Part shown: piece by piece, positions 1,766-49,489 of the stretch
How positions within the stretch are numbered: position 1 is the first letter of the stretch
Layout of the letters: each line of letters opens with the position of its first letter
Origin: Deltaproteobacteria bacterium
GTDB lineage: Bacteria > Bdellovibrionota_B > Oligoflexia > Oligoflexales > Bog-1112
Length of the DNA: 64,000 nt
Assembly: GCA_016186945.1 (NCBI GenBank)
Contig: JACPKR010000072.1
Span: 1-64,000, forward strand
Direction: 5' to 3'
Translations under genes and position numbers: made by a program
The notes under the pieces: generated by a model
Database searches by the model: none
What the model was told of the DNA's origin: nothing
The model's input: the letters and a program-made list of their open reading frames with translations, nothing else

Positions 1766-2982
1766 TGAACAACCTACACTGGCTCAAACGATTGCAAGAT
1801 CTCGAATGCCCCGACGCCACTTGGTCACCCGAGGACGACCCCCTAGTGTTGGAAACGGCGCAAGGCTCCCTTCTTTCGGACGTGGAAGGGCGCTCCTACA
1901 TCGACCTTTGTGCTGGGTTCGGTTCTTTGCCCTTGGGACACAATCATGAGACCGTGCGGGAGATTCTCCACAAGCACAGCAACGAAATCATACACGGCCT
2001 TGGAGATGTGTATCCCTCACGTTTCAAAATTGAGCTGATGGAAACATTAGCCAGCCTTCTTCCCCCTTCCCTCGACCGAATGGCGCTAGCCGTTACTGGT
2101 TCTCAAGCCGTCGAGCTTGCCATGAAAACAGCAATCCTTGCGACGGGACGCTCGGGCTTTGTAAGCTTTGAAGGCGCCTACCACGGGCTAGACATGGGAT
2201 CCTTGAGTCTGACGGGTCGAGAAGACTTCATACAACCGTTTCACTCCTGGTTCCGACAAGACAGAGTGACTCAATTGCCCTTTCGTTGCTCCATGGACCT
2301 GCTTCGCTCCACGTTCCGATCTATGGAAAAAGCAAGCGCCGCACCAGCCGCTGTCATCGTCGAACCCATTCAAGGACGGGGAGGGGTGCGTGCTGCCGGT
2401 CTGGAATGGTTGAGCAGGCTGAGGGAACTTTGCACGCAAGAGGGTGTCCTTCTGATCTTCGATGAAATCTTCACCGGCCTGGGACGATCGGGTCGCATTA
2501 CTTTTGCGGAGGAAGTGCCTTGCGATCTTCTCTGCCTGGGGAAAACCTTGGGAGGAGGTTTCCCACTGTCCGCTTGCGTAGGCCCGGCAAAGATTATGAG
2601 CGCCTGGCCCGTCAACAAGGGAGAAGCTCTGCATACAGGCACCTTCTTCGGACACCCTCTTTCTTGTCAGGTAGCGAACGCAACCCTTCAAATGCTGGCA
2701 AAGGAAGCTCTCTGGCAACGCACAAAAAGCTTAGGGACTGTGTTCAAAGAAATGCTGAATAGGACACTCCTCCACCACCCCTCTGTTAAAGAGGTAAGAG
2801 GTGAAGGATTCATGCTGGCAATCGAATTTAAACGCCCAGGAGTAGGTGCGGTTTTCATGAACCAATTGCGGAAAGCGGGAGTGATCGCAATCCCTTGTGG
2901 ACACAACGGGGAGTGTTTATCATTAACCCCTGCTTTCAATATCACCGAGCAATTGCTAAATGACGCCGTCGCGCGGCTATAG
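1765..2982 (+). CDS. PLP-dependent class III aminotransferase
   Basis: 405 residues with the fold-type I class III pattern: an N-terminal substrate region GxGSLPLGHNHE, the PLP-phosphate region TGSQAVELAMK, the acidic cofactor residue in IFDEIFTGLGRSG, and the Schiff-base lysine in LCLGKTLGGG. The family includes acetylornithine, 4-aminobutyrate, ornithine and diaminopelargonate aminotransferases; I cannot fix the substrate. The start is the ATG overlapping the queE stop, preceded by GAGGAG; a longer upstream frame would run inside queE. The TAG stop lies in the TATAGT end of a family A repeat, so the natural C-terminus may have been altered when the repeat arrived. Confidence 0.85.
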   Translation: MNNLHWLKRLQDLECPDATWSPEDDPLVLETAQGSLLSDVEGRSYIDLCAGFGSLPLGHNHETVREILHKHSNEIIHGLGDVYPSRFKIELMETLASLLPPSLDRMALAVTGSQAVELAMKTAILATGRSGFVSFEGAYHGLDMGSLSLTGREDFIQPFHSWFRQDRVTQLPFRCSMDLLRSTFRSMEKASAAPAAVIVEPIQGRGGVRAAGLEWLSRLRELCTQEGVLLIFDEIFTGLGRSGRITFAEEVPCDLLCLGKTLGGGFPLSACVGPAKIMSAWPVNKGEALHTGTFFGHPLSCQVANATLQMLAKEALWQRTKSLGTVFKEMLNRTLLHHPSVKEVRGEGFMLAIEFKRPGVGAVFMNQLRKAGVIAIPCGHNGECLSLTPAFNITEQLLNDAVARL

Positions 2983-3142
2983 TGTTCAAGATAATCAATT
3001 TGGGGACAAACTTTTTGAAAAAAGTTTTTTCCCCAACCCCCTTTTCAAAAACTTCAGTATTTGAAGTTTTTTGGGGGGAGGTGTGGAGGGGAACTTTTTT
3101 TCAAAAAAGGTCCTCTTCACATATTCTTTTTCCCAAATACTA
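2979..3142. repeat. Family A MITE-like repeat, long form, copy 1
   Basis: About 164 bp, from TATAGTGTTC to CCCAAATACTA, filling nearly the whole gap between the aminotransferase and valS. It contains three successive hairpins: a GGGG/CCCC stem with AAACTTTTT/AAAAAGTTT-like arms, a second stem CCCC..AAAAACTT/AAGTTTTTT..GGGG, and a third GGGGAACTTTTTTT/AAAAAAGGTCC-type stem. The same sequence returns in reverse orientation at 49321-49489, and without the first hairpin at 10605, 17461 and 39395. Each stem is followed by T-rich sequence, so it may act as a terminator or attenuator ahead of valS. Confidence 0.85.
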
Positions 3143-3155
3143 ATAGGAGTCTTGA

Positions 3156-5804
3156 ATGGAAGAGAAAGAGTCACTTTACGAACATTCCAGGTATGAGCAG
3201 AAATGGTGGGATTTCTGGACCAAGGGTGGATGGTTCAAAGCAAAGACGAATAGCGGGAAAAAGAACTATACGATACTGATCCCCCCTCCCAACGTCACAG
3301 ACCGTCTTCACATGGGGCACGGTCTCAACAACACAATTCAAGATATCCTCATCCGATGGAAAAGGATGCAGGGTTACAACTGCCTGTGGCTTCCTGGTAC
3401 CGACCATGCCGGCATTGCCACGCAGATGATGGTGGAAAAGGCTCTAGCGAAAGAGGGCCTGTCTCGAAAAGAACTCGGGCGCACGAAATTCTTCCAACGT
3501 TGCGTCGAGTGGAAGGAGAAAAACGGGGGCATCATCATCAATCAGTTGAAGAAACTCGGTGCCTCGTGCGACTGGGATCGTGAAGCCTACACGATGGACG
3601 AACATCTGTCCCGTGCCGTCCGGAGAATTTTTGTAAACCTGTTTAACGATGGACTGATCTACAGGGGTGAACGCCTGGTGAATTGGGACCCTGCCCTGGA
3701 AACAGCTATTTCCGACGACGAAGTCAACATGGAGGAAGTCAAAGGCAAACTTTGGCATATTCGCTACCCGTTGAAAGATGAAGAAGGGCACATCGTCATC
3801 GCTACAACTCGTCCTGAAACAATGCTGGGGGACACAGCCGTTGCTGTAAATCCAGATGACGAACGCTACCAACAGCTGATCGGGAAACAAGTGGTCATCC
3901 CATTCGTAAACCGAGTGGTTCCTATCGTGGCAGATCATCATGTTAAACCAGAGTTTGGCACCGGATGCGTGAAGATAACACCTGCCCACGACCCCAACGA
4001 CTTCGAGATTGCCAAACGACATCAATTACCCCTTATCAACATTTTTGATGAAAAGGCATGTTTGAATGACGTTAGCCCGCAAGAATGGAGAGGGCTGGAT
4101 CGCTTCGTGGCAAGGAAGAAAATCCTTGCAGCCTTGGAAGAAAAAAGCTTACTCGAAAAGGAAGAGCCTTATCGTTACATCATGCCTTTCTCTGATCGTA
4201 GTAAGGTAGCCATCGAGCCACGTTTGTCAAAACAGTGGTACGTTAGGATGAAAGAACTTGCGGGGCCTGCGATTGATGATGTTCGCAACGGCACCATTCG
4301 CCTGTTTCCAAAACTGTGGGATAAGACCTACTTCCACTGGATGGAACATATTCAAGACTGGTGCATTTCTCGTCAACTGTGGTGGGGACACCGCATTCCC
4401 ATTTGGTACTGTGCGGATTGCGAGGACGTAACGACGGGAGTCGACGATCCCAAGACGTGCCGCTCTTGCGGAGGGTCAAAACTCAAGCAAGACGAAGATG
4501 TGCTCGACACCTGGTTTTCAAGCTGGCTCTGGCCCCTTAGCCCCTTTGGTTGGCCCGAGGAGACGGAGGAGCTGCGAACGTTTTTCCCGTCGAATGTTCT
4601 TGTAACCGGTGCAGAGATCATCTTCCTGTGGGTAGCTCGTATGATTATGGTTTCCCATTATACGCGACAGCAGGCACCGTTTAAGGACGTCTATTTCAAC
4701 TCGATCATCTGCGACAAGAATGGACGAAAGTTTTCAAAAACCCTGGGAAACGGGATAGACCCCCTTGAGACAATTTCAGAGTACGGAGCCGATGCCACAC
4801 GCTTTACCTGTGTCGTTTTAGCACCACTCGGTGGCAGGGTCAGGATGGAAAGCTCGGACTTTGCCAACGGATACCGCTTCGTCAACAAACTCTGGAACGC
4901 TTCCCGCTTTCTGAACCAGAATCTTGGAAGCATCCGCAAAATAAACGACTTCAGGGAGGAGGATCTCGACCTTCCCAGCCGCTGGCTCATTCACCAATTG
5001 CGAGAGACAAGCTTTAAAATCAATCATTGTCTGGAGCATTACTGGCTGCACGAAGCAAGTGCCGCTCTCTACCAATTCATCTGGCACGCGTTCTGCGATT
5101 GGGGGTTGGAGACAGCAAAGCCAAGCTTGGGAAAAGAGAAAGCAGACATCCACCTCATTGCGTCCGTGCTAATCTACGTATTTGAGGGTCTTTTGCGCTT
5201 GGCAGCCCCCTTCATCCCCTTCGTAAGTGAAGAAATTTGGCATAGCCTTCCTGCACACCCCAGATGGGAAAGACCGACAAGTCTGGTGATTGCCAAGTTC
5301 CCCCAAGCTGAAGAAATTCCGCAATTTAGCGAAGATTCCGAAAAATGGGAGCAAGTCAAAGCTGTCGTTACAGGCGTCCGCTCCCTACGAACCCAAGCCG
5401 CTATCTCACCCAAGGAAGAGCTAGACGCCTTCCTTACATGCGACGATGAGGTTTGGGCCTTGATACACCCATGCCGACATTGGATCAAACAACTTGCGAA
5501 TGTCAAAGACCTGCAAAAGACCGCAACAGGAAAGACCCCCCATCAAAGCCTCGTCACGACCGGTAAAGGTTGGTCGCTGCACGTCCCCGTCGGTACACTG
5601 CTCGACGTTGAGAAAGAAAAACAACGTTTGGAAAGGGAACTTAAGCGTATTGGGAATATCGTGAAAGGACTGGAACAAAAAATCACTGATAAAAACTTCC
5701 TGGCTCGTGCTCCCCAGGATGTTATCGAAAGCTCGCAGGGGCAATTGGAAAACATGCGTGCCCAAGCCCATACCCTTCTGGAAAATATAAAGACTCTGAG
5801 CTAA
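3156..5804 (+). CDS. valS: Valyl-tRNA synthetase
   Basis: Charges tRNA-Val and edits threonyl errors. 882 residues, as usual for the family. The class I HIGH motif is present as HMGH in PPNVTDRLHMGHGL, and the KMSKS loop as KFSKT in NGRKFSKTLGNG. The editing domain carries ATTRPETMLGDTAVAV. A zinc-ribbon-like insert has four cysteines in CADCED...CRSCGGS. The C-terminal 60 residues form the coiled-coil tRNA-binding arm (EKEKQRLERELKR). Start ATG 3156 has AGGAG at 3145-3149. A family A repeat sits directly upstream, so transcription may pass through or be tuned by it. Confidence 0.96.
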   Translation: MEEKESLYEHSRYEQKWWDFWTKGGWFKAKTNSGKKNYTILIPPPNVTDRLHMGHGLNNTIQDILIRWKRMQGYNCLWLPGTDHAGIATQMMVEKALAKEGLSRKELGRTKFFQRCVEWKEKNGGIIINQLKKLGASCDWDREAYTMDEHLSRAVRRIFVNLFNDGLIYRGERLVNWDPALETAISDDEVNMEEVKGKLWHIRYPLKDEEGHIVIATTRPETMLGDTAVAVNPDDERYQQLIGKQVVIPFVNRVVPIVADHHVKPEFGTGCVKITPAHDPNDFEIAKRHQLPLINIFDEKACLNDVSPQEWRGLDRFVARKKILAALEEKSLLEKEEPYRYIMPFSDRSKVAIEPRLSKQWYVRMKELAGPAIDDVRNGTIRLFPKLWDKTYFHWMEHIQDWCISRQLWWGHRIPIWYCADCEDVTTGVDDPKTCRSCGGSKLKQDEDVLDTWFSSWLWPLSPFGWPEETEELRTFFPSNVLVTGAEIIFLWVARMIMVSHYTRQQAPFKDVYFNSIICDKNGRKFSKTLGNGIDPLETISEYGADATRFTCVVLAPLGGRVRMESSDFANGYRFVNKLWNASRFLNQNLGSIRKINDFREEDLDLPSRWLIHQLRETSFKINHCLEHYWLHEASAALYQFIWHAFCDWGLETAKPSLGKEKADIHLIASVLIYVFEGLLRLAAPFIPFVSEEIWHSLPAHPRWERPTSLVIAKFPQAEEIPQFSEDSEKWEQVKAVVTGVRSLRTQAAISPKEELDAFLTCDDEVWALIHPCRHWIKQLANVKDLQKTATGKTPHQSLVTTGKGWSLHVPVGTLLDVEKEKQRLERELKRIGNIVKGLEQKITDKNFLARAPQDVIESSQGQLENMRAQAHTLLENIKTLS

Positions 5805-5806
5805 CT

Positions 5807-5929
5807 CCACTTGGGGCAAGGAGGTGGTTTGGAGGAAACTGCGCAGCTGGTTCCTCCAAGAAAACTCATGGGGGAGCGACGGTTCCCTCGCCCCCCCAAA
5901 CCCCCCTCTCCCTTTTTGCCCCAAGTGGC
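5807..5929. repeat. Family B MITE-like repeat, copy 1
   Basis: About 123 bp between valS and rph. It is bounded by CCACTTGGGGC and GCCCCAAGTGG, an 11-bp inverted repeat, and holds an inner hairpin with arms GGAGGAA and TTCCTCC around the palindrome CTGCGCAG. Nearly the same sequence lies at 30780-30921 and a fragment at 9525-9608. It starts two bases after the valS stop, so it may serve as the valS terminator. Confidence 0.85.
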
Positions 5930-6028
5930 TTACACATGACTGATAGGTGAACTACTGGGTTGCGAAAAGTGGTTGGCGAACATACAATTGGCACGGTTTT
6001 TCAATGTAACCAAACAAAGGATAAAGTG

Positions 6029-6760
6029 ATGCGAAAAGATGGGCGTTCTGCGGCCCAGTTACGGCCTATTCGGATGATTCCAGGGTATTCCAGCTTTTCA
6101 GATGGAAGTGTGCTTATAGAAACCGGCGAAACAAGGGTCCTTTGCACGGTTAACTTTGAAAACTCGGTTCCTCCGTGGCTACGCTACTCGCGGGCGAACC
6201 ATGGGTGGTTAACGGCGGAATACTCTATGCTGCCTGGTGCCACTCAGGAGCGGACGAAGAGGGAGAGGGGTCATCTCGGCGGTCGTACTCAGGAAATCCA
6301 AAGACTTATTGGACGTGCTTTACGAGGCATCCTGGATCTGAATAAATTCCCAGACGCTACTTTTGTAGTAGACTGCGATGTTCTTCAGGCGGATGGTGGA
6401 ACGCGAACCGCGTCGATAACTGGTGGCTTTGTCGCTCTAAATTTGGCGATCAATAAACTATTGAGAGAAGGTCGACTGAAGCATAACCCGATCAGGGAAG
6501 CGGTCGCCGCGGTATCTGTGGGAATCAAGGATGGAGCGGTCCTTGTCGACTTAAACTACGGAGAAGATAGTACCGTCGATCTTGACATGAACATCGTCAT
6601 GACCCAGAGCGGCAAGCTTCTTGAAATCCAAGGGACAGCCGAAAAATCATCCTTCACCAAAGAGCAGGTGCTTGAAATTGTCACTGCTGCTGAAGATTCT
6701 CTGAAAGGAACATTCGACCTCCAGAAAACAGCTGCGGACGGGCAAGAGGTCGAGGGTTGA
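6029..6760 (+). CDS. rph: Ribonuclease PH
   Basis: Phosphorolytic 3'-to-5' exoribonuclease that trims tRNA 3' ends. 243 residues, against about 240 usual. It opens with MRKDGRSAAQLRPI (family R-DGR-x-x-x-x-LRP), and includes the AEYSMLPGAT and ERGHLGGRTQEIQRLIGRALR blocks that carry the phosphate- and RNA-binding arginines, then DCDVLQADGGTRTASITG. The start ATG 6029 was chosen over an upstream frame start because AAGGAT precedes it and the family begins here. It converges with secA with a gap of 22 bp. Confidence 0.95.
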   Translation: MRKDGRSAAQLRPIRMIPGYSSFSDGSVLIETGETRVLCTVNFENSVPPWLRYSRANHGWLTAEYSMLPGATQERTKRERGHLGGRTQEIQRLIGRALRGILDLNKFPDATFVVDCDVLQADGGTRTASITGGFVALNLAINKLLREGRLKHNPIREAVAAVSVGIKDGAVLVDLNYGEDSTVDLDMNIVMTQSGKLLEIQGTAEKSSFTKEQVLEIVTAAEDSLKGTFDLQKTAADGQEVEG

Positions 6761-6782
6761 CGCCCTCCCTACGGCACTTGGA

Positions 6783-9437: not shown

Positions 9438-9524
9438 ATTGCTACCGTACATGGGTGGTTTACGTTAATCCAAGGTCTCAAAATAACATGGCTGGTGTGG
9501 ACAGAGAATCCCAAATCCGTCTAA

Positions 9525-9608
9525 AGGGATTTCTTGGAGGAACCAGCTGCGCAGTTTCCTCCAAACCACCTCCTTGCGGCAATCTAAACCACCTCCTTGC
9601 GGCAATCT
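9525..9608. repeat. Family B fragment with a 23-bp tandem duplication
   Basis: The GGAGGAA/TTCCTCC hairpin with the CTGCGCAG core of family B is present in reverse orientation, but the outer TTGGGG ends are lost. In their place a 23-bp unit (ACCACCTCCTTGCGGCAATC core) is repeated twice in perfect tandem, at 9563-9585 and 9586-9608. The second unit ends two bases before the stop codon of the M23 gene. This is a decayed or rearranged family B copy between the M23 gene and secA. Confidence 0.8.
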
Positions 9609-9610
9609 AA

Positions 9611-10582: not shown

Positions 10583-10604
10583 TTGTTTCCCGCTATTTTC
10601 CGTA

Positions 10605-10713
10605 ACCCCCTTTTCAAAAACTTCAGTATCTAAAGTTTTTTGGGGGGAGGTGTGGAGGGGAACTTTTTTTCAAAAAAGGTCCTCTCCACAAATTCTTTTT
10701 CCCAAATACTATA
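10605..10713. repeat. Family A repeat, short form, copy 2
   Basis: About 109 bp from CCCCCTTTTCAAAAACTTC to CCCAAATACTATA. It keeps the second and third hairpins of the long form and lacks the TATAGTGTTC hairpin. It lies in the leader region of the M23 gene, 23 bp upstream of its ATG, so it would be transcribed as 5' untranslated sequence if the promoter proposed at 10743-10770 is used. Confidence 0.85.
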
Positions 10714-10742
10714 GTTTCAACGGAACTTGATAACTTAATTTC

Positions 10743-10770
10743 ATTATAGGGTCATCAGGAATATTTTTAA
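10743..10770 (-). promoter_or_regulatory. Candidate promoter for the M23 gene
   Basis: On the minus strand a perfect TATAAT (10743-10748) is preceded, after 16 bp, by the weak -35 TTAAAA (10765-10770). It lies between the glycosyltransferase stop and the family A repeat. The -10 is convincing, the -35 is not. Use of this site would put the whole repeat into the M23 leader. Confidence 0.35.
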
Positions 10771-10813
10771 TTCGTTAAAATTACCTAGTCGGGGGGACGC
10801 ATAAGTTTTTTGG

Positions 10814-17437: not shown

Positions 17438-17460
17438 CGGATTGGTTTCCCTTCCCCTAG

Positions 17461-17567
17461 CCCCTTTTCAAAAACTTCAATATCTAAAGTTTTTTGGGGG
17501 GAGGCGTGGAGGGGAACTTTTTTTCAAAAAAGGTCCTCTCCACAAATTCTTTTTCCCAAATACTATA
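17461..17567. repeat. Family A repeat, short form, copy 3
   Basis: About 107 bp from CCCCTTTTCAAAAACTTC to CCCAAATACTATA, between the end of the FHA/HD-GYP gene and the start of the ExbB-like gene, both on the minus strand. On that strand a TATAAT lies just outside the right end (17570-17575), so the promoter of the motor operon may abut the repeat. It may also terminate transcription coming from the FHA gene. Confidence 0.85.
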
Positions 17568-26927: not shown

Positions 26928-27000
26928 CATGCGTAATCCACGGGTCGCAAGGAGGTCGCTCCCTTTCATTGTCATCTCGCGGCTTGACCGCGGGATCCAA
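26928..27000. repeat. Composite of a family B end fragment and a REP-like palindrome
   Basis: The first 27 bp (ATGCGTAATCCACGGG...GCAAGGAGG) follow the left end of family B (ATGCGTAAGCCACTTGGGGCAAGGAGG) with a few changes. They are followed by a palindrome with arms CGCGG and CCGCG around CTTGA (about 26974-26995) of the type TCTCGCGG-CTTGA-CCGCGGGA, which resembles dispersed palindromes known in many proteobacteria. The ATG at 26929 that would begin the longest downstream frame belongs to this repeat, so I do not take it as the start. Confidence 0.65.
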
Positions 27001-27009
27001 GTTTCCTCC

Positions 27010-29428: not shown

Positions 29429-29458
29429 CGCTTGATTACAACACGTACGTATCTGGAG

Positions 29459-29500
29459 TTCAACTTCCCCTCCACACCTCCCCCAAAAAACTTTAGATTT
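29459..29500. repeat. Family A repeat fragment
   Basis: About 42 bp match the middle of family A (CTTCCCCTCCACACCTCC followed by CCCAAAAAACTTTAGAT) in the same orientation as the copy at 39395. Both outer ends are missing. The stop codon of the minus-strand ATPase gene (29493-29495) lies inside the fragment, so the last codons of that gene derive from the repeat. Confidence 0.75.
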
Positions 29501-30695
29501 TGCGTTCGACCAACAGCCCTTGCAAAAAACTTGCGGAATTTGAACTCCATCCGAGTGCTTCTTTTTCTCTTATCACTGGTCCCGAAGGGTAAAGTAAAAA
29601 AGCTGGAACCTTCAGTTTCTGTGCATAATATCTTAAGCCTACCGGCCAACTCTGCGGGCTTGACTTGCATTCGATGAGAGCCAGGGGCCGCAAATTTCGG
29701 GTGATAACGAAATCCACTTCGCGTCGGTCTTGATCTCTTAAAAAGCAAAGCTCGTAACGACCATACCCTTGTTCAGACCATGCTGAACAGGCGAGAGCCA
29801 GTTGGATTGCCATGTAATTTTCAAAACAAGCCCCTTTATCTTCGCAAAAACTCCATTGTTCAAAATACCACTTTGCTTCCTTCTTAACAGCTCGGTGTAT
29901 TTTCCGGTGGAAGGGATAAATACGCAAACCGAGAAACAATGTTTCGAAAAGCCGCAGCCACGTTCTGACGGCAACCGGACTGACTTCAATATCTTCGGAT
30001 AAAGCCTGAAGGGAGAGCGGTGATCCAACGCGTTCAGGAAGCAAACGTGCAAGCATCTCCATTTTGTCTAGGCGTTGGACCAAACTGAAATCCCGAACAT
30101 CTTCGCGTATCAAACGATCAAGATATTGATCTTGCCAGCGTCTGGCCTTTTGCTCACTAGCCCCTAAAAAAGGAATGGGGAAGCCACCAAGCTGAATGAG
30201 ATCTTCATCGGAGATTTTAGACGAACTATCCGGCTCCCAGTGTTGCCAATCACGAGGTGCAGCAAGAATGTTTGAACCTAAAGATGACGTTTCGTCAAAT
30301 GAAAACGGCCAGAGCTTAAAACTGTTGTAACGTCCTTGTAAACTGTCACCGCCTCTCTGGTACTGGTCAAAACGCCCCGAACCTGTGACTATGAAATTTT
30401 CCTGCCGAGTGGACGAGTCATAATAACCTTTCAGAATTTTTTTCCAATCCTTGCGCTTATGAATTTCATCAAAAACGACCATCTTGTGTTCACTACGAAA
30501 AAAATATGGTTCTTTTACGTAGGACTTTTTGACTTCTACGGTATCCCAGTTGAAATATGCCGCTCCTGTTAGTTGGGTCGTCAACCAGGTTTTGCCGACT
30601 TGACGCGCCCCTGTTAGGAAAACCATGGGACGAGGAACGAAAATTTTTTCTCTTAACTCTTGAAAGGCTAAATTCTCTAAGGCCCTTTTAACCAT
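29493..30695 (-). CDS. AAA_14/DUF4143 ATPase (first copy)
   Basis: 400 residues. N-terminal AAA domain with Walker A GARQVGKTWL, Walker B MVVFDEIHKRKDW and sensor VTGSGRFD; C-terminal DUF4143 region with a winged-helix part (LLPERVGSPLSLQALSEDIEVSPVAVRTWLRLFE) and a nuclease-like end DRREVDFVITR...LALIECKSS (D-x(n)-ExK pattern). The family is widespread and mobile and its function is unknown. The start ATG 30695 has GAGG in front; an ATG at 30725 lies in the centre of a palindrome. Its 3' end is in a family A fragment. Only distantly similar to the copy at 36933-38072. Confidence 0.88.
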   Translation of the reverse strand: MVKRALENLAFQELREKIFVPRPMVFLTGARQVGKTWLTTQLTGAAYFNWDTVEVKKSYVKEPYFFRSEHKMVVFDEIHKRKDWKKILKGYYDSSTRQENFIVTGSGRFDQYQRGGDSLQGRYNSFKLWPFSFDETSSLGSNILAAPRDWQHWEPDSSSKISDEDLIQLGGFPIPFLGASEQKARRWQDQYLDRLIREDVRDFSLVQRLDKMEMLARLLPERVGSPLSLQALSEDIEVSPVAVRTWLRLFETLFLGLRIYPFHRKIHRAVKKEAKWYFEQWSFCEDKGACFENYMAIQLALACSAWSEQGYGRYELCFLRDQDRREVDFVITRNLRPLALIECKSSPQSWPVGLRYYAQKLKVPAFLLYPSGPVIREKEALGWSSNSASFLQGLLVERKI

Positions 30696-30779: not shown

Positions 30780-30921
30780 AATGCGTAAGCCACTTGGGGC
30801 AAGGAGGTGGTTTGGAGGAAACTGCGCAGCTGGTTCCTCCAAGAAATCCCTTGGTGGAGCGACGGTTCCCTCGCCCCCCCAAAACCCCCCCCCCCCATTT
30901 TCCCCAAGTGGCTTACGCATT
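30780..30921. repeat. Family B MITE-like repeat, copy 2, with 20-bp perfect terminal inverted repeats
   Basis: 142 bp. The ends AATGCGTAAGCCACTTGGGG (30780-30799) and its exact complement (30902-30921) are perfect. Inside are the GGAGGAA/TTCCTCC hairpin with the CTGCGCAG centre and a C-rich tract with twelve consecutive Cs. It is not in a gene: it lies between the palindrome of the first ATPase gene and the 3' end of the next minus-strand gene. No transposase is encoded; as a MITE it would need one elsewhere. Confidence 0.9.
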
Positions 30922-38298: not shown

Positions 38299-39399
38299 AT
38301 GACGTACATATGGGAGAGAGATGATTGGCCGGAATTCAGGTGGGACTCTACATTAGTAGAAAAGCAGGTTTATGCTTATGTGAAGGAAGCGAGTTCTTTA
38401 ATTGGTCAGGCTTCTCTTTTCACGAGTGAAAGAACAACAGAAGCGTTGGTCGATCTGATGGTCTCGGAGGCTGTTAAAACCTCTCAAATAGAAGGAGAGT
38501 TTTTCAGCAGGAAAGATGTACGGTCGTCCATACTCAATCAATTGGGAATTAGAAAGACGATTGAACGCGTGCGTGATCCTGGCGCAGAAGGAGTTGCATC
38601 TCTTATGATTGCTGTTCGAGATCAATTTCGGGAGCCTTTGACGGAACAACGATTATTCGAGTGGCATAGTTTGCTTATGTCAAGACCCATTGATAGAAAG
38701 CGCTTAGCTGTTGGGAAATGGAGGACATCAACGAAGTCCATGCGGATTATTTCGGGACCTATGGGTCGGAAAAAGGTCCACTATGAAGCACCGCCATCGC
38801 ATCGGGTGCCGCGGGAGATGGAAACATTCATAGGCTGGTTTAACGAAAGTAAGGACTTGAAAGGCCCTATACGAGCTGGAGTCGCCCACCTTTATTTTGA
38901 ATGCATCCATCCCTTCGATGATGGTAATGGACGCATTGGACGTGCCTTATCTGAGACGGCTTTGTCTCAAGATTTAGGTTCCCCCGTGCTCCTTAGTCTA
39001 TCCACAACGATCCAAGCACACCGGCGGAGTTATTATGATGAACTGTCTAAGGCAAGTCGAGGGGATCTCGATATTACCGAGTGGCTGGTCTGGTTTACCC
39101 AAGTGATCTTGGACTCACAGTTGCAGGCTAAGGGACAGATTGAATTTGTTCTCAAGAAGGCTCGTTTTTGGGATCATCATGCTGAGCATATCAATAAGAG
39201 ACAGGTCAAAGTGTTGCAAAGGATGTTCAAGGAGGGACCAAAGGGATTCTCTGGTGGCATCACCGCGCAAAAATATATGAAAATTGCCGCTTGCTCAAAA
39301 GCCACCGCTACGCGCGACTTAAGCGATTTGAATACAAAAGGCTGTTTGAAAAGACTTGCAAGCGGTGGTCGAAGTACGCATTATGAAATTAATCTATAG
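38299..39399 (+). CDS. Fic family AMP-transferase-type protein (DUF4172-Fic-winged helix)
   Basis: 366 residues. N-terminal DUF4172-type start (YIWERDDWPEFRWD), the inhibitory helix motif T61-SQI-E65-G66 of class II Fic proteins, the catalytic loop HPFDDGNGRIGR with H204, and a C-terminal winged helix (about 300-366). The loop is canonical, so nucleotide transfer (usually AMP from ATP to a hydroxyl side chain) is expected, held in check by E65. Two palindromes lie upstream. AAGGGCGG precedes the ATG. The stop TAG is in the TATAGT end of a family A repeat. Targets cannot be read from sequence. Confidence 0.92.
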   Translation: MTYIWERDDWPEFRWDSTLVEKQVYAYVKEASSLIGQASLFTSERTTEALVDLMVSEAVKTSQIEGEFFSRKDVRSSILNQLGIRKTIERVRDPGAEGVASLMIAVRDQFREPLTEQRLFEWHSLLMSRPIDRKRLAVGKWRTSTKSMRIISGPMGRKKVHYEAPPSHRVPREMETFIGWFNESKDLKGPIRAGVAHLYFECIHPFDDGNGRIGRALSETALSQDLGSPVLLSLSTTIQAHRRSYYDELSKASRGDLDITEWLVWFTQVILDSQLQAKGQIEFVLKKARFWDHHAEHINKRQVKVLQRMFKEGPKGFSGGITAQKYMKIAACSKATATRDLSDLNTKGCLKRLASGGRSTHYEINL

Positions 39400-39502
39400 T
39401 ATTTGAGAAAAAGAATTCGTGGAGAGGACCTTTTTTGAAAAAAAGTTCCCCTCCACACCTCCCCCCAAAAAACTTTAGATATTGAAGTTTTTGAAAAGGG
39501 GC
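39395..39502. repeat. Family A repeat, short form, copy 4
   Basis: About 108 bp from TATAGTATTTG to GAAAAGGGG, exactly filling the gap between the stop codons of the convergent fic and lipoprotein genes. The fic stop TAG lies within its terminal TATAGT. The hairpins with T-runs on both strands would suit a bidirectional terminator. Confidence 0.88.
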
Positions 39503-41416
39503 TTACTGCTGTAGTTTCTGGTATTCGATCTTCAGTTCCTCGTGCTCGATCTTCCTTGTATCCCAGTCCGCCCTCTTGGGGGGGAGAAAAACGTCAGCAG
39601 CATAGGCATCTAAATCTCCCTTATAGTCGGTCTGAAATCGCCGCCATTCTTCCAAGTCTTTCACAAAAACCATTGTTTCTGCTTCGCTGCCCCGAGTCTT
39701 TTCAAGCCACCTATCGAGTTCACTCTTCCGTGCAGGTGGTAATGCGAACCCTGAGAAGTCCTTATTCGCTAGCTTAGCTTGCAGATAGGCAAGCTCTTCA
39801 TTCACCACATTGGGTTCACCCTTGACCCTCTCGGAGAATATCCCAGCTCCCTTCAATCTGTCCTCAAGGGGCCCAAATTTTTTCATTAAGTTAAAGCGAA
39901 AGGAATCACCGATAGACAACTCAAGCCCATTCCTAACAGCTTCTATATCCTTCGAGAAGAGGACTCCTCCGTTTTTATAGTAGGCTTCCAAACCCATGCT
40001 CAGTCTCGTATTTCTTTGGAGGTGATACGCAGAAAGCTGGGAAAAACTATCCACAGTGAGAGCTTCCCCATCACCGGTTCTTCCTGCATAGGCAGCACTC
40101 TCCTTCGAGACCGGTCCGTCTTTATCGAAGAAATTTCTGAAAGACCGATATTGCCTAAGCTCTTGTTCGGCAATGCGAACTGCATCCCCAAGCGTAGTCA
40201 ACTGAGCCTGAAGATTGACGATCTCTTTCCATTTAACGGAATCCATCCTCTTTGAAAGAGCGATCATGAAAGCATCCGCATCGCCCAATGATAATTTTGC
40301 ATCTTTTTGCCTAAGCTGCGTGGTCAAATCTCCAAGTCTTCTTCCATCAGGCAAAAGTAGGGTTTCGTTGAACTTGGCAAGTCTGACACCCAATTCTTCT
40401 TGGATTCTCAAATAGTTTTCCAGTACGTCTAATTGCCGTGTCGGGGTGCCCGTAGGGAAGTTTAACCACTGCTGCTTGAACTTCTCAAATGCAACTCTAA
40501 AAGGGTTTGTTGGGCCGCAATATGCAGCATAATTTTCCAAACGTTGGGCAAGGGGCTTAACTTCACTGTTTACCATTCCTTCAAAGGATGAACCTAAACT
40601 GCGTGCCTTCTCAGCGAGGGGTTTTTCTAGAAGAAGAATTCCTGCGCCCACGCTAGGTTTGCTGCTTCGGACCTCCACCTGTTTTGCTGTTTTGGGATCG
40701 GGGGCCTCTTTCGCCGGAGCTGGGGATTCGCTTGCCGGTGTTCGCTTCGGTGCTGGGACAATCACGCCTTGCGGAGGAACCCCGCCCTCAAAACGCACAG
40801 GCTCGTAGTTTGTGTCCAAATCTCTGAACCCTTGGGGAACGGGAAACTCTTCAGGAGCTAACTCCACAGTTCTTGTCCCCAGGTTTGAATTCTGCCGTAC
40901 CCTTGGTAAATTAGGCGCTGATGAAATAACCCGTGGGCTTTCCCACATTCGACGCAGCTCATCTACGCGCACCCTGGCGGTAGTTTGGGGCTCAACACGT
41001 GGCGTAGGACTAGCAGGTCCTTCTTCGAACGCACGCGCCAAAGTTTTTACATTACCAAGAAGACCCAAGCCGGAACCTCCTTCCCATTCCCCTTCACCCT
41101 TTAACTCATCGCTGTAAACGTAGTATCGAATGAAACCGTCCTCCCCTACGTACTCCTTCATCGAATCGTCCATAGTCAAGTTAAGCACTGGTAGATAAAT
41201 TTGCGTCAGGGGACGAGTGAAATCAAAAGCTTCCGCATTCTCTCTTGGATGAAGCGACCCTTCAAAGGGCTCCAACAAAAGCAAATCATTGCCCGGACTT
41301 GATGAGTTTGTTTGTGCTGCCTGGGTCAATTCTTGACTCGGGCTACGGTCATGTTTCTTGCAGGCTAAAATATTCAAAAGGACAATCGAGACCAAAAACT
41401 TCACCCAAGTATTCAT
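39503..41416 (-). CDS. Large lipoprotein, helical, unknown
   Basis: 637 residues from ATG 41416 (GGAG seven bases upstream; a longer frame start would add 16 residues before the signal peptide). Lipobox LLNILAC. Residues about 25-250 are low-complexity and proline-rich (with TPRVEPQTTARVR and PASESPAPAKEAPDP), like a wall-spanning linker; residues about 260-637 are predicted helical, charged and end in a coiled coil (KIEHEELKIEYQKLQQ). I do not recognise the family. It lies downstream of sdhB on the same strand with a gap of 57 bp, and may be transcribed with it. Confidence 0.7.
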   Translation of the reverse strand: MNTWVKFLVSIVLLNILACKKHDRSPSQELTQAAQTNSSSPGNDLLLLEPFEGSLHPRENAEAFDFTRPLTQIYLPVLNLTMDDSMKEYVGEDGFIRYYVYSDELKGEGEWEGGSGLGLLGNVKTLARAFEEGPASPTPRVEPQTTARVRVDELRRMWESPRVISSAPNLPRVRQNSNLGTRTVELAPEEFPVPQGFRDLDTNYEPVRFEGGVPPQGVIVPAPKRTPASESPAPAKEAPDPKTAKQVEVRSSKPSVGAGILLLEKPLAEKARSLGSSFEGMVNSEVKPLAQRLENYAAYCGPTNPFRVAFEKFKQQWLNFPTGTPTRQLDVLENYLRIQEELGVRLAKFNETLLLPDGRRLGDLTTQLRQKDAKLSLGDADAFMIALSKRMDSVKWKEIVNLQAQLTTLGDAVRIAEQELRQYRSFRNFFDKDGPVSKESAAYAGRTGDGEALTVDSFSQLSAYHLQRNTRLSMGLEAYYKNGGVLFSKDIEAVRNGLELSIGDSFRFNLMKKFGPLEDRLKGAGIFSERVKGEPNVVNEELAYLQAKLANKDFSGFALPPARKSELDRWLEKTRGSEAETMVFVKDLEEWRRFQTDYKGDLDAYAADVFLPPKRADWDTRKIEHEELKIEYQKLQQ

Positions 41417-41473
41417 TTTCAATCTCCAGATCGAGGGTGATCGTCGGGGCTGATGCAAGGTCATGGCCTCGTT

Positions 41474-44133: not shown

Positions 44134-44140
44134 AACAGTC

Positions 44141-44812: not shown

Positions 44813-44848
44813 AAGGTCCTATGTTCCAAGTTACAAAAACATTTGCTC

Positions 44849-44876
44849 ATCATAGTACCTGAACCTTTCATGACAA
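44849..44876 (-). promoter_or_regulatory. Sigma-70-like promoter of sdhCAB
   Basis: On the minus strand TTGTCA (44871-44876) and TATGAT (44849-44854) are separated by 16 bp. The sdhC ATG is 37 bp downstream of the -10. This is a 5/6 match in both boxes. It lies between sdhC and the end of the barrel-protein gene, so the operon can be expressed independently of yajC. Confidence 0.65.
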
Positions 44877-44892
44877 CAGAAATTTTGATTGT

Positions 44893-45867
44893 TTACATAT
44901 TGAGCTGTACAGCAAGGTTGACAGCCTGATGGATAGGCTCTTCATCCAGATACGGCTTGCTTAAGAGGTAGGAGAGGGAAAAAGATTGATTGACCAAGGC
45001 AAGACCACCGGACAACGTGCTTCGTCGTCCTCCAATTTCTACGCCATAACCACCAAGCACCCGTAAAAGATCCTGTATGCGAACAGAACAAGAAAGTATC
45101 CCTAAGCGTTCAAACCCACTCTTTCCGTCAAACTCAACAAGGTAGTCGTCTTCGACAATGAGTAATTCTTGCTTAACCCGCTGTCTCTGGCGGTAATCGA
45201 GGTGGGCTGTCAGGTTGCCGTTCAGCAAGGTATAAGCCAATCCACCTCGATACGTCAGCGGTGCTATGTCCCTGACTTTCTTATTGCCTGCATTTTCCAC
45301 AGAAAGACCGAAGCGGAGAGCCGGATTTAAGAGAGCGGCCAAACCGAAACCGAAGGTCACCCCTCGTTTTGCATCCTCCTCGTTTTCAACACGATTGACG
45401 ACTTGAACACCGAGACCGGCTGCAAAATTGGAAAAAGCCTGCCCAAAACCTAACGATACCCTGTTTTTAAGTGGGGAGTCATAATAGTGCTGCCGTCTCC
45501 TTTCAACAGGGATAGGCTCATTTGTTTTGTATTCATCCACGAAAGACGTATAGGTAACACCAGCTGCTATGCTTGAAGTCTTGGAATCTACAATCCCTGC
45601 CTGATAGAACTCTCTGCCAAACGTAGGCCAATGATAGCCGGCAGAAAGCTGATACTGCTTTTCAAACACTAACATCGCTGGATTGGACTTAACCGAATTT
45701 TGACCGGAAATAGCAGACATCCCCCCCATGCCTGTCCCGAGAATGTGCCCCCCATCACTTTCCAGCTCGTCGGGAATACGGCCAGGATATTCCTCACTTT
45801 TCGCTAAAAGCTTCGAGGGAAGACAAAAGAGTAAGAAGAACAGAACTTGAACACGCGTTGGATTCAT
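44893..45867 (-). CDS. Predicted outer-membrane barrel protein, unknown
   Basis: 324 residues from ATG 45867 with a signal peptide (MNPTRVQVLFFLLFCLPSKLLA). The mature part is beta-rich with alternating hydrophobic residues (LSAGYHWPTFGREFYQAGIV, SLGFGQAFSNFAAGLGVQVV, LSYLLSKPYL) and ends in VNLAVQLNM, as in barrel strands. An N-terminal GGMSAISGQNSVKSNPAMLVF block is like that of FadL/PorV-type small barrels. The function is unknown; lies between yajC and sdhC. Confidence 0.7.
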   Translation of the reverse strand: MNPTRVQVLFFLLFCLPSKLLAKSEEYPGRIPDELESDGGHILGTGMGGMSAISGQNSVKSNPAMLVFEKQYQLSAGYHWPTFGREFYQAGIVDSKTSSIAAGVTYTSFVDEYKTNEPIPVERRRQHYYDSPLKNRVSLGFGQAFSNFAAGLGVQVVNRVENEEDAKRGVTFGFGLAALLNPALRFGLSVENAGNKKVRDIAPLTYRGGLAYTLLNGNLTAHLDYRQRQRVKQELLIVEDDYLVEFDGKSGFERLGILSCSVRIQDLLRVLGGYGVEIGGRRSTLSGGLALVNQSFSLSYLLSKPYLDEEPIHQAVNLAVQLNM

Positions 45868-45937
45868 AAACCCACCCATGGAGTTAGCAGAAGTTCTTTC
45901 CTCGATTATCCCGCAAACCAGCGTTATTTCAAATGTC

Positions 45938-46321
45938 CTATTTTTCTTTGGCCGGAACTTTCGAAACAGGAGCTTCCTGTTTCGGATGTGTCAGGCGCGT
46001 GATGTTCTCCTTGAGGATCTTAACCGTGGTCGATCCTAGGTCGAGGACGATGAACGCATCCGAAATACTTTTGATCCGCCCGATAATGCCCCCACTCGTC
46101 ACCACCTCATCCCCCACCTGGAGCGAACCAAGAAGATTCGAATGCTCCTTTGATTTTTTCACCTGTGGTCTTATTAGAAGAAAATACATTAAGACAAGAA
46201 TGATCAGAAAAGGAATCATACTCTCAAACATTGACGGCTGGGTGTTTGCTCCCGACGTCGCAGCTTCCTGCGCCATGGCAACGGTGGAACCGAAAAAAAA
46301 TGAAAATAGAAAAGCTCTCAT
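45938..46321 (-). CDS. yajC: Preprotein translocase subunit YajC, with N-terminal extension
   Basis: 127 residues. The YajC core is clear: IPFLIILVLMYFLLIRPQVKKSKEHSNLLGSLQVGDEVVTSGGIIGRIKSI, one membrane helix plus a small cytoplasmic domain. Before it come about 35 residues resembling a cleavable signal peptide (MRAFLFSFFFGSTVAMAQ) and a short linker, which common YajC proteins lack. The start at 46321 has GGAG six bases upstream; two further ATGs upstream lack this. It assists SecDF-YajC. Own promoter at 46371-46399. Confidence 0.93.
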   Translation of the reverse strand: MRAFLFSFFFGSTVAMAQEAATSGANTQPSMFESMIPFLIILVLMYFLLIRPQVKKSKEHSNLLGSLQVGDEVVTSGGIIGRIKSISDAFIVLDLGSTTVKILKENITRLTHPKQEAPVSKVPAKEK

Positions 46322-46370
46322 TAAAAACTCCATTAATTTACTTGAATTCCTGAATAAAAATGAAAAGTTG

Positions 46371-46399
46371 ACTATACAAAGTGAGCTCCCAGCAATCAA
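46371..46399 (-). promoter_or_regulatory. Sigma-70-like promoter of yajC
   Basis: On the minus strand TTGATT (46394-46399) and TATAGT (46371-46376) are separated by exactly 17 bp. The yajC ATG at 46321 is 50 bp downstream. It lies between the rpoH stop and yajC. Confidence 0.62.
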
Positions 46400-46447
46400 T
46401 TGCAAAACGAGCTGCTTAGCTAGCCAGAACAGCCAGTAAGCAAGGAG

Positions 46448-47344
46448 TTAAATATCCAAGGTCCCCTTTTCTTGAACAAAGTTCCTTAATTTCTGGATAA
46501 TTCGTGTTTCGACCTGCCTGACACGCTCACGGGAAATTTTGTACTTCTCGCCAATCTCCTGCAGCGTCAACGGATGCTCACTGGTCAGGCGAAGCTCGAA
46601 AATCTCCTTTTCTCGCCCTTTCAAAACCTTCTTGAAGTCTTGCAAATACTGAGAAAAAATCAGCCGCACCTGCCGCTCAGCAAGCATATCGTCAATCGAC
46701 TGCTCCTCCTTATCGACCAGGAAATCCTCCCGATCGGAAGACGACTCCCCAAAACGTAATGGTGCGTTCAAAGAAAGATCCGGACCCATCAACCTCTTCT
46801 GCATCTCTAAAACGTCCTTCTCTGGAACCTTTAGTCGCGCCGCTATCTGCTTCGGGTCAGCCGTGTCATACTCAGCCAGAAGACGATCCGTCTCTTTCTG
46901 AAGATTGTAGTACAATTTGCGTTGCGCAGCTGTCGTCGCGATTTTCACCTGACTGCGATGATCCATTAGATATTTCAATATGTAGGCACGGATCCACCAC
47001 GCAGCATAACTGGCTAGCTTTACACCTTTGTAAGGGTTAAATTTCTTTACGGCCTGCATCAGACCGTAGTTACCTTCCTGAATGAGGTCGAGTAGATTTG
47101 CTTGCGCACGACAAAATTCGTTGGCTATTTTAACAACTAGGCGCAAGTTCGCTGTAATAAGACGATGGGCTGCTTTAATATCACTTTCTTCGTAATGCTG
47201 TTTGGCTAGCTCAAACTCTTCCTCAGGCGTCAGAAGAGGATATTTCGCGATCTCCTGAAGGTAGAGTTGTAACGGCGATATTTTAGCAGGGACTCTCGAA
47301 CCCGCTAGGACAGGAAGTTTACTCACTGGCTTCAATTCCATCAT
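46448..47344 (-). CDS. rpoH: RNA polymerase sigma-32-type factor
   Basis: 298 residues. Region 1.2 (SPLQLYLQEIAKYPLLTPEEE), region 2 (ANLRLVVKIANEFCR...DLIQEGNYGLMQAVKKFNPYKGVKLASYAAWWIRAYILKYLMDH), the RpoH box QRKLYYNLQK that separates RpoH from RpoD, and region 4 with helix-turn-helix (LTLQEIGEKYKISRERVRQVE). It should direct heat-shock transcription. Region 1.1 is absent, as in RpoH. Divergent from the diacylglycerol kinase-family gene with 36 bp between starts. No CIRCE or other control site was seen there. Confidence 0.94.
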   Translation of the reverse strand: MMELKPVSKLPVLAGSRVPAKISPLQLYLQEIAKYPLLTPEEEFELAKQHYEESDIKAAHRLITANLRLVVKIANEFCRAQANLLDLIQEGNYGLMQAVKKFNPYKGVKLASYAAWWIRAYILKYLMDHRSQVKIATTAAQRKLYYNLQKETDRLLAEYDTADPKQIAARLKVPEKDVLEMQKRLMGPDLSLNAPLRFGESSSDREDFLVDKEEQSIDDMLAERQVRLIFSQYLQDFKKVLKGREKEIFELRLTSEHPLTLQEIGEKYKISRERVRQVETRIIQKLRNFVQEKGTLDI

Positions 47345-47380
47345 TGGTTTGCAAGCAGGCTAACATTAAAGGATTCCACC

Positions 47381-48316
47381 ATGGCTGGAATTGGCATAAT
47401 AACAAATCCACATGCTAAATTAAATAAACGAAATCCAGAGCGTTCCAAGCTTCTAAGCTATATTGCAGGTTCCCGTGGAAACCTTGAAATCACTAATAAT
47501 TTGGAAGACTTAAGAAAGGTCGCCAAACGGTTTTCAGAGCAGAAAATAGACACTCTCGCCATAAATGGCGGAGATGGAACCATCAGCCGTACTATAACCG
47601 CCTTTATCCACGAATACGGAAATGAAAAACTGCCCGATATCGCTGTCTTACGCGGCGGCACTGTGAATGTACTCGCTGATAACCTCAATATAAAAGGTAG
47701 CCCTGAACAAATCCTCTACCGCCTCGTCGAAGCTCACTCCCTGCCTTCATACTTGGGCATAACGGAACTAAGCACTCTCAAAGTAAATAGCCACTATGGA
47801 TTCATCTACGGCAATGCAACAAGTTATCGTTTCCTGGAAGCCTTTTATATGAGAAAGACAAACCAACTGGGCGTCCTTCTTCTCCTCGCTAGGGTGATCC
47901 TCTCATCCATCTATGGAGGAAACCTTTTCAGAAAAACAATCATATCTGAGCCAGTCACCTTAGAATCTGACAACTCTGCACTTATCTCGCTCGTTGCCCC
48001 TTTTCTTTTTTGCTCAACCGTCGAATTTCTGCCACTTAAAATCAGAATGTTCTCCCAAGCTCAAAAAAACCCTGACAAGTTTCAATGCCTCGCCATCCTT
48101 GTTCCACCCCGAAAGGTTCCTCTTCGTCTGCCTGAATTTGCCCTTAACTTATCCAGTACAAAAAAACATAAGACAGAATTTCTAACGAATAAGCTCGTCA
48201 TTACAGCAGATTCTCCATCCGCGGCTGCTTATACTCTTGATGGAGAACTCTTCACCCCTCAAGATAGAAATGTAGAGATTTCTCTAGGCCCGAGGTTAAG
48301 ATTTATCATCGTCTAG
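47381..48316 (+). CDS. Diacylglycerol kinase-family lipid kinase
   Basis: 311 residues. The start GIITNPHAKLNKRNP and the nucleotide-binding GGDGTISRTITAF, followed by LRGGTVNVLADNLNI, are those of the DagK/YegS/LCB5 catalytic domain. The C-terminal half includes LVITADSPSAAAYTLDGELF, the typical 'DGE' end. It phosphorylates a lipid hydroxyl; diacylglycerol or another lipid alcohol is possible. It lies seven bases before the AmgK-like gene and is probably in one operon with it. Confidence 0.88.
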   Translation: MAGIGIITNPHAKLNKRNPERSKLLSYIAGSRGNLEITNNLEDLRKVAKRFSEQKIDTLAINGGDGTISRTITAFIHEYGNEKLPDIAVLRGGTVNVLADNLNIKGSPEQILYRLVEAHSLPSYLGITELSTLKVNSHYGFIYGNATSYRFLEAFYMRKTNQLGVLLLLARVILSSIYGGNLFRKTIISEPVTLESDNSALISLVAPFLFCSTVEFLPLKIRMFSQAQKNPDKFQCLAILVPPRKVPLRLPEFALNLSSTKKHKTEFLTNKLVITADSPSAAAYTLDGELFTPQDRNVEISLGPRLRFIIV

Positions 48317-48323
48317 GTTTCTT

Positions 48324-49325
48324 ATGAATCAAACACCAGTGCCCCACGACGTGCTGTGTGGCCTTCTGAAAAGTCAAGATGTTCGCTGTAGCCCCCTATC
48401 GGGCGATGGATCGGACCGTACATACTTTCGTGTTAGCTCTTCCGAGCGGGGGGAAACTTACCTGCTCATGAAACTGACGGGCAAAGACGCTAAAGCACTG
48501 CGCAATGGCTCTTACCCCTGGATAGCATTGGGAAAAACTCTTAAGAACGTAGAAATCTGCGTTCCCCGTGTTCATTCGATCCTTCCGGAATACGGAACGC
48601 TCATGATCGACGACCTTGGCAAAACTATGCTGGAAAAACGCATCCAATCCATCAAAGGCAATACAAAGAAACTGTACGCACTCTACGATCAAGGGTTTTC
48701 AATTATTTCTAAATTCATGAAAATCGCTCCTGAAAACGATGATTTTTGGAGTTCCAAAACGTTTGACCACAAATTTCTACAGGACGAGCTTCTGTTTTTT
48801 CAAATCCAATACCTGAACTTCTTCCCAACTTTCAATAACAGAAGAGACGCCCTGCTGTTTCGCCATGAGACGAACTCACTTTGCCACTTTATAGCAAAGC
48901 TATCTCGGCATTTCGTCCATCGAGACTTCCATTCACGGAACCTTATGTGCGTAGGATCAGAGCTAGGGGTGCTCGACTTTCAAGACGCCCGATGGGGACC
49001 CGCTGCTTATGATGTCGTGTCACTTTGCTTTGACGCGTATGTCCCGCTTTCCCCGGAAAAACGCGAGGAAGTTTTAAACCGCGGCCTCGAATTTTTCGCT
49101 AAGAACAATAATCCGGAACTTTCCGAAGAAATCTCGCAATCATGGCGAGCAGTGCTGCTTCAAAGACAACTGAAAGCAATCGGAAGCTTCGCCTATCTGA
49201 CGAGGAAAACTAAACGAGATTACGCGCAGTACATAAGCCCCGCACTGAAGATCCTGAACCAGATAGGCATGGCGGAAGACAAATGGCCCTACCTTGTGAA
49301 TGACATGGTTCCAAGACTTGTATAG
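48324..49325 (+). CDS. amgK: AmgK-like sugar kinase (aminoglycoside phosphotransferase fold)
   Basis: 333 residues. Phosphotransferase motifs: SGDGSDRTYFRV (nucleotide loop), LMKL lysine, catalytic FVHRDFHSRNLM and metal site GVLDFQDARWGPAAYDVVSL. This set is typical of AmgK, which phosphorylates the anomeric hydroxyl of MurNAc/GlcNAc in the peptidoglycan recycling route that bypasses de novo UDP-MurNAc synthesis. The MurU-like gene follows, supporting the role. Its stop TAG (49323-49325) lies in the TATAGT end of a family A repeat, which separates it from the MurU-like gene. Confidence 0.8.
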   Translation: MNQTPVPHDVLCGLLKSQDVRCSPLSGDGSDRTYFRVSSSERGETYLLMKLTGKDAKALRNGSYPWIALGKTLKNVEICVPRVHSILPEYGTLMIDDLGKTMLEKRIQSIKGNTKKLYALYDQGFSIISKFMKIAPENDDFWSSKTFDHKFLQDELLFFQIQYLNFFPTFNNRRDALLFRHETNSLCHFIAKLSRHFVHRDFHSRNLMCVGSELGVLDFQDARWGPAAYDVVSLCFDAYVPLSPEKREEVLNRGLEFFAKNNNPELSEEISQSWRAVLLQRQLKAIGSFAYLTRKTKRDYAQYISPALKILNQIGMAEDKWPYLVNDMVPRLV

Positions 49326-49489
49326 TATTTGGGAAAAAGAATTTGTGGAGAGGACCTTTTTTGAAAAAAAGTTCCCCTCCACACCTCCCCCCAAAAAACT
49401 TTAGATATTGAAGTTTTTGAAAAGGGGCTTGGGGAAATAACTTTTTTCAAAAAGTTTGTCCCCAAATTGATTATCTTGAACACTATAGA
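49321..49489. repeat. Family A MITE-like repeat, long form, copy 5
   Basis: 169 bp in the reverse orientation of copy 1, from TATAGTATTTGGG to GAACACTATA. It is bounded by the terminal inverted sequences TATAGTATT and TATAGTGTT. It contains all three hairpins. It lies between the AmgK-like and MurU-like genes, which usually form a unit, so it is either a late insertion in an operon or a processing/attenuation site. Confidence 0.88.

Follow-up and report, generated by a model that had tools for sequence, protein, structure and literature searches.

The miniature inverted-repeat transposable elements (MITEs) of the IS630/Tc1-mariner type, of which pneumococcal RUP is an example, are short and non-coding, end in inverted repeats, duplicate a TA on insertion and prefer CTAG; IS630 itself is said, in the title of a 1991 paper by Tenzen and Ohtsubo, to prefer a TA that lies within CTAG. 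Repetitive extragenic palindromes (REPs) are single palindromes of 20–40 nt with neither inverted ends nor a target duplication. The duplication of TA by IS630 is described in PMC2170065. PMC2649163 and PMC2229807 describe the Correia or NEMIS elements of Neisseria as present in about 120–250 copies with inverted ends of 24–26 bp that start with TATAG, and PMC5896051 describes QMITE1 and QMITE2 of Coxiella, MITEs that overlap gene 3′ ends, with a 3′-end preference that is called unexplained there and direct repeats that are mixed in sequence and length. Here we consider family A, a repeat first noticed in a window of 64,000 nt (the whole stretch of DNA analysed, positions 1 to 64,000 of contig JACPKR010000072.1) and found to be dispersed through the assembly that contains it (GCA_016186945.1, hereafter G000). 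Family A is very probably a non-autonomous MITE of the IS630/Tc1-mariner type whose arms carry interchangeable interiors, and it constitutes a new, abundant and apparently lineage-specific family of a kind of element that is already known.

Comparison with the described systems places family A closest to the IS630-type MITEs, which it resembles in being short and non-coding and in its inverted ends, TA duplication and CTAG preference. The likeness to RUP is one of description and not of sequence, and family A differs in that a transposase with the same ends was not found and in that its interior is modular. With the Correia elements it shares inverted ends, a target duplication, several length classes and RNA hairpins, although the ends diverge from the Correia search pattern TATAG[CT]GGATTAA... 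after TATAGTG; we rejected membership after comparing the published patterns with our consensus by eye, since only this initial TATAGTG is shared. Furthermore, the two main Correia classes differ by an internal 50-bp segment, whereas the forms of family A arise by truncation and by swapped palindromes. The QMITEs are similar in overlapping gene 3′ ends, again by description and not by sequence, but differ in that insertion into the TA of a stop codon is seen at some family A sites. Membership in the REP or BIME repeats was likewise rejected, because inverted ends and a target duplication are present. The literature, judged mostly from titles and abstract openings, yielded no report of family A, and nothing was found there on MITEs of Bdellovibrio or on orientation bias in MITEs.

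The family A unit runs from TAGTRTT to AATACTA, with a consensus of 163 nt (built from 25 copies) that extends from TAGTGTTCAAGATAATCAATTTGGGG… to …ATTCTTTTTCCCAAATACTA; the arms read TAGTRTTCAAG… on the left and …CCCAAATACTA on the right. The inverted ends are imperfect and span 27 bp with 19 matches, the inner 20 nt of which score better than shuffled sequences (p=0.0011), and the interior consists of three hairpins, with a predicted RNA fold of about −54 kcal/mol on either strand. Among 60 intact copies the median pairwise identity is 0.94. Intact tips are flanked by TA at 45 of 53 left and 64 of 76 right ends, and TA is found on both sides in 30 of the 45 copies in which both tips are intact. 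In a looser set defined by length, both flanks are TA in 34 of 54 standard copies, in 11 of 12 copies with the palindrome-bearing interior described below, and in all seven mini or internally deleted copies. The flanking TA is preceded by C in 28 of 45 copies and followed by G in 35 of 64, compared with backgrounds of 0.20 and 0.22, respectively, at intergenic TA. Read from the sequence, the TA flanks and the preference for C-TA-G are the signature of IS630/Tc1-mariner transposition. The earlier note on this DNA had described the ends as imperfect terminal inverted repeats starting with TA; that they are inverted and imperfect holds, but the outer TA is better read as a target duplication lying outside the element, and the inverted ends extend further, to 27 bp.

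The family is far commoner than the window shows. G000 comprises 2.66 Mb in 76 contigs (completeness 91%, contamination 0.2%), and in it a 24-mer from the left tip, allowing up to two mismatches, has 59+75 matches (134) compared with 0+0 for the control, while a 25-mer from the left hairpin, allowing up to three, has 55+61 compared with 0+0 for the reversed control. A 20-mer from the right half, again with up to three mismatches, has 66+83 matches, but because its control is high (23+30), possibly owing to another repeat that resembles the pattern, we rely on the two left-hand counts. The number of copies must exceed 134, because left-truncated copies lack the left tip. All six places at which the earlier note had put family A copies in the window do hold them, matched well beyond chance genome-wide. 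Among 55 relatives, many of them incomplete but including the same-genus genome G001, there is no full-length match (up to 15 initial candidates per genome being scored), and only matches of 21–27 nt occur, in two of them. Likewise, an exact 27-mer core had no match in genome_contigs and a 26-mer none in viral_contigs (the window's own genome may be excluded from both), blastn found nothing in plasmids and phages, the palindrome-bearing variant had no match in plasmids, and its palindrome had none in viral contigs. The valyl-tRNA synthetase of the window is nearest, at 56–57% identity, to those of Oligoflexales and Pseudobacteriovorax metagenome-assembled genomes, which tentatively places G000 in that order. 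Family A adds a large, apparently lineage-specific MITE family to a little-studied group, probably the Oligoflexales (Bdellovibrionota).

It is informative to examine sites that hold an element in G000 in light of the corresponding sites in G001, which is 75% complete. Twelve sites were compared (five in the window, four on C32 and three on C18), the distances being calculated between matching aligned residues of the two genomes. At two of the six sites with retained neighbours, removal of the element and one TA restores a frame end like that of the orthologue. The first is window position 49321, where the distance is 190 nt in G000 and 10 nt in G001 and where the frame of gene 48324, once joined, runs five more codons to the ACCACTTAAAGC context (TAA) of the orthologue. 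The second is C32:27772, where the TA was part of the original stop codon: once joined, the protein has the same end point as the G001 orthologue, and the present protein carries three residues encoded by the element. At window position 2979 the C-terminus of the G001 orthologue extends 11 residues further, and in G000 the gene now stops at the TAG of the element; at C18:50783 the distance is 57 nt in G001, without family A, compared with 211 nt in G000. Window position 10605 (71 nt in G001, 276 nt in G000) is the least trusted of the sites, because the gap exceeds the element and the G001 frame has no stop there. A search for empty sites of another sort, family A nested within other repeats, gave no match across a junction; one copy adjoins a copy of a second repeat, family B.

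Insertion into stop codons can also be followed within G000. When 26 gene 3′ ends at intact copies were read for joined frames, in four the element, flanked by TA on either side, proved to have inserted cleanly into the stop codon and to give the protein an element-coded tail, and seven stop at the TAG of the tip where the joined frame would continue. Nine joined stops at TA were flagged in all: the four clean cases, one that is unclean (C19) and four in which the present stop is identical. In several regions, among them C60:16200 and C15:54600, open reading frames (ORFs) now end in an element-coded tail, ...KKFPSTPPPKKL. Insertion into the TA of stop codons helps to explain part of the placement at gene ends. 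The statement that copies lie only between genes or at gene ends is broadly right, and partly follows from the presence of TA in stop codons, which offers a concrete cause for some of the reported tendency of bacterial MITEs to lie at gene ends.

The interiors of the elements are not fixed. From the matches listed we picked by eye 20 regions with tips that lacked a listed match to hairpin 1; of the 22 tips read in them, 17 continue into a palindrome, P (TGTCATCCCGCGG…), three into minis, one into a standard copy and one into a sequence like family B. The element at C44:1419 looks, by eye, to be fused to family B. Pairing of tips across all fetched DNA gave 75 two-ended elements, 54 of them standard, 12 with P, seven short (five minis of 77–80 nt and two elements with internal deletions, 101 and 109 nt long) and two other, one of which is an additional P copy missed by the filter. 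In 11 of the 12 P elements, much of the interior has given way to an inverted pair of P or to a longer array of it; the right-hand joint takes two different forms, and tandem expansion is sometimes seen. In the expanded elements (C64:11300-18795, region L221, and regions L214 and L220) the unit TTTTACGAGTCTGTCATCCCGC is repeated several times, with runs of CGGGATGACA. On C24 and C75, with different flanks, a single P lies at the identical point inside hairpin 3. The occurrence of the same derived structures at separate loci is good evidence for carriage by the arms of any sequence that they enclose. Although 34 of 36 P copies have a family A arm within 400 nt, this count is biased, because the DNA was fetched by family A arms; and since four P-type tips lie near contig ends (on C13, C59, C64 and C75), the assembly breaks at such elements and more may be missing. 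The palindrome resembles REP or CGTC-tagged palindromes as they are presented in PMC3733652, a resemblance and nothing further. With natural composites of the standard, palindrome-pair and mini kinds, it would be possible to separate what the interior does from what is minimally needed for mobility.

Copies that have lost sequence are equally varied, and the division into a long, three-hairpin and a short, two-hairpin size class proposed in the earlier note does not stand: the short copies are truncations from either side at varied positions, which led us to reject a fixed short class, and forms with swapped interiors also exist. In about 366 kb of DNA fetched in the first two batches, 109 copies score at least 60 bits with a hidden Markov model (HMM); classed by the extent of the HMM match, 61 are intact, 28 left-truncated, 19 right-truncated and one truncated on both sides, proportions that are shaped by sampling with the right half first and the left half afterwards. 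Left-truncated copies start at consensus positions 12–81 and right-truncated copies end at 79–142, and these points seem to cluster between hairpins and within the loop of the middle hairpin. At least three of the 28 left-truncated copies retain the left tip farther out and so are internal deletions (C5:11654, C17:17061 and C17:47932), and two of the 19 right-truncated copies are the composites on C24 and C75.

These observations suggest a scheme in which a DDE transposase supplied in trans, perhaps now lost or unassembled, would recognise the 27-bp arms and move the unit. It would insert at TA, preferably in C-TA-G, with duplication of the TA, and material between the arms would ride along, giving rise to a three-hairpin interior, a palindrome pair or almost nothing. 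Copies in intergenic DNA and at the 3′ ends of genes would then survive, partly owing to the TA within stop codons and to the in-frame stops that the element itself supplies, and would afterwards decay through one-ended and internal deletions. The copy number, the ends, the TA flanks, the target bias, the composite forms and two empty sites at the level of reading frames are observed, and the mobility of family A is well supported, while we infer the type of transposase and movement by cut-and-paste; that an unassembled or lost IS630-type element was the driver is the simplest guess.

Several results weigh against this scheme. A search of G000 for the transposase domain DDE_3 (PF13358) found none, so that the remark that no transposase is in the window is borne out across the assembly (91% complete) for DDE_3 only, other transposase families not having been searched. 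The one readable IS630-like end of a relative, TTGGAAGCGC-TA in G002, differs from the ends of family A. One or both of the flanking TAs are absent or altered in 15 of the 45 copies with both tips and in 20 of the 54 standard copies. In the comparison with G001, both neighbours were kept, giving sufficient synteny, at only six of the 12 sites; at C32:22414 the distance is hardly shorter there (365 compared with 380 nt), and C32:27772 even has the longer distance in G001 (231 compared with 204 nt), because other repeats occupy that place. Also, the empty sites are established at the level of reading frames against a genome of the same genus, not at the level of nucleotides against a strain of the same species. 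Among the eight genomes of the taxonomic family, G000 included and negative, four have DDE_3 matches, three of them over the cut-off. A search of the DDE_3 loci of the relatives for long inverted ends together with ORFs gave no usable autonomous element. In G002, a genome of the same taxonomic family, seven IS630-like transposase 3′ ends (regions L173 and L176–L181) all read ...TTGGAAGCGC followed by TA, and three of the seven lie at the first base of a contig. In the G001 contig C157 (region L182, around 1008–1216) there are other spacer repeats (GATGACAAGGATGCTCGC... and GTCATTCCGAG...) where G000 has family A.

It is also worth considering how the copies are placed with respect to genes, for which positions were taken from our own simple gene caller and neighbours within 200 bp on both sides were available for 83 copies. 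The median distance to the element is 4 bp for gene 3′ ends, of which 32 of 80 touch or overlap it, and 33.5 bp for gene 5′ ends, of which six of 86 do so. The 83 copies occupy 46 tandem, 20 divergent and 17 convergent gaps, compared with 81, 26 and 18 among 125 element-free gaps, so there is no strong preference for context. Within tandem gaps, the right end of the element faces the upstream stop codon in 35 copies and the opposite way in 11 (p=5.4e-4), a bias that recurs among intact copies only (22 to 6, p=0.004) and among two-ended elements including the P and mini forms (26 to 8, p=0.003), as well as in earlier versions of the gene calls (34 to 7, 38 to 14 and 34 to 9). Right-truncated copies at any distance give 2 to 4, a tiny sample.

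The orientation bias and the low number of private changes within the interior are hints of selection or of gene conversion. In 47 strictly intact copies, with 11 common variant columns left out, private changes number 10 in 2051 (0.5%) at positions 49–97, compared with 15 in 747 (2.0%) at 3–20 and 28 in 846 (3.3%) at 142–160. None of the search patterns was drawn from positions 49–97, so ascertainment bias is limited though not removed. One explanation, which we regard as unlikely, is that selection keeps the interior hairpins in place as RNA elements at the 3′ ends of mRNAs (a stabiliser, an RNase III substrate or an attenuator) and that past mobility seeded the copies. Such a role would account for the orientation bias, which the few right-truncated copies do not show, for the paucity of private changes and for the strong fold on both strands. 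However, convergent gaps, where two 3′ ends meet, show no strong excess (17 of the 83 near copies, compared with 18 of the 125 gaps that lack an element), and the interior patterns used to find copies favour conserved interiors. Moreover, once all columns are counted, divergence in the interior is close to that of the tips (3.8% at 49–97, 4.4% at 3–20 and 4.3% at 142–160), so that the gradient is confined to private changes. Divergence is similar at paired and unpaired interior positions (1.03 and 1.13%), and among 105 changed pair cells 68 are one-sided yet still pairing, 37 are broken and none is compensatory, which leaves the RNA structure without support from covariation. Where the earlier note had offered recent spread or selection for an RNA function, spread is upheld by the TA flanks, the matching ends, the empty sites, the derived variants at several loci and the lack of a full-length match in the 55 relatives, while an RNA function is a possibility that the orientation bias and the fewer private changes fit, but no compensatory change is seen, the overall diversity of the interior is close to that of the tips, and gene conversion fits as well. 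The notion that the hairpins are ordinary intrinsic terminators, alike by convergence or duplication, agrees with their location at gene ends and is nonetheless highly improbable, given that 20 of the 83 near copies lie between divergent genes and that the elements have defined ends with TA flanks.

A more plausible account of the gradient, though still a tentative one, is that the interior has been partly homogenised by ectopic gene conversion among dispersed copies, shared variants and mosaics then reflecting recombination and not function. In intact copies, private changes are fewest in the middle of the element and most numerous at its ends, as expected if conversion tracts must start inside homology, and all four combinations of common variants, each in at least three copies, occur in 16 of 28 column pairs. 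Against this, assembly of a metagenome from short reads can yield similar mosaics and consensus interiors in repeats of 163 nt. Furthermore, right-truncated copies show the gradient (0.7% at 49–97, 3.4% at 3–20), but left-truncated copies do not (3.4% at 49–97, equal to 142–160), perhaps because 49–97 borders their broken end. Gene conversion, selection and smoothing during assembly all fit the gradient, and of these we lean, without much confidence, towards conversion; support is weak both for a homogenised interior and for selection on orientation. A further and rather doubtful proposal, somewhat less probable than that of RNA elements, is that the arms act as a shuttle by which hairpins, including foreign palindromes (P and, once, apparently family B), are carried to the 3′ ends of genes, preferentially in one orientation, the hairpin and not the transposon end then being kept, by selection or by conversion between copies. 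If this were so, a MITE would be the dispersal system of a REP-like palindrome.

Within the window itself, the standard 163-nt form occurs twice, with 96% identity between the copies. The first lies at 2980–3142 on the forward strand, with TA at 2978–2979 on its left and a degenerate TA on its right, and its first TAG is the stop of an upstream aminotransferase-like gene; the second lies at 49323–49485 on the reverse strand, with TA on both sides (49321–49322 and 49486–49487), and its TAG terminates the gene at 48324–49325. Three left-truncated copies retain an intact right tip with its TA: 10597–10711 (forward strand, consensus 49–163, TA at 10712–10713), 17452–17565 (forward, consensus 50–163, TA at 17566–17567) and 39397–39504 (reverse, consensus 56–163, TA at 39395–39396). 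A weak fragment (consensus 76–129, 23.4 bits) is at 29450–29502 on the reverse strand, and a solitary P with one mismatch, the palindrome that elsewhere in the genome forms the interior of the P-bearing variant, is at 26970–27001 on the forward strand. Rfam at its gathering threshold has no match in the window, and a Rho-independent terminator (a GC stem followed by a T run) was rejected as a candidate identity, there being no terminator-like site in either of the two long copies.

Two minor observations may be added. The genes at 48324–50361 have, to judge from their motifs, the look of a sugar kinase and a nucleotidyltransferase and are perhaps AmgK/MurU-like; the sugar-kinase-like gene is the one at 48324 that the family A copy has shortened. 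Family B, a second dispersed repeat, has a GGAGGAAACTGCGCAGCTGGTTCCTCC core and occurs in the window at 5807–5937, 30790–30920 and 9524–9582, in copies that are 92–97% alike, with partial matches in many other fetched regions of the assembly.

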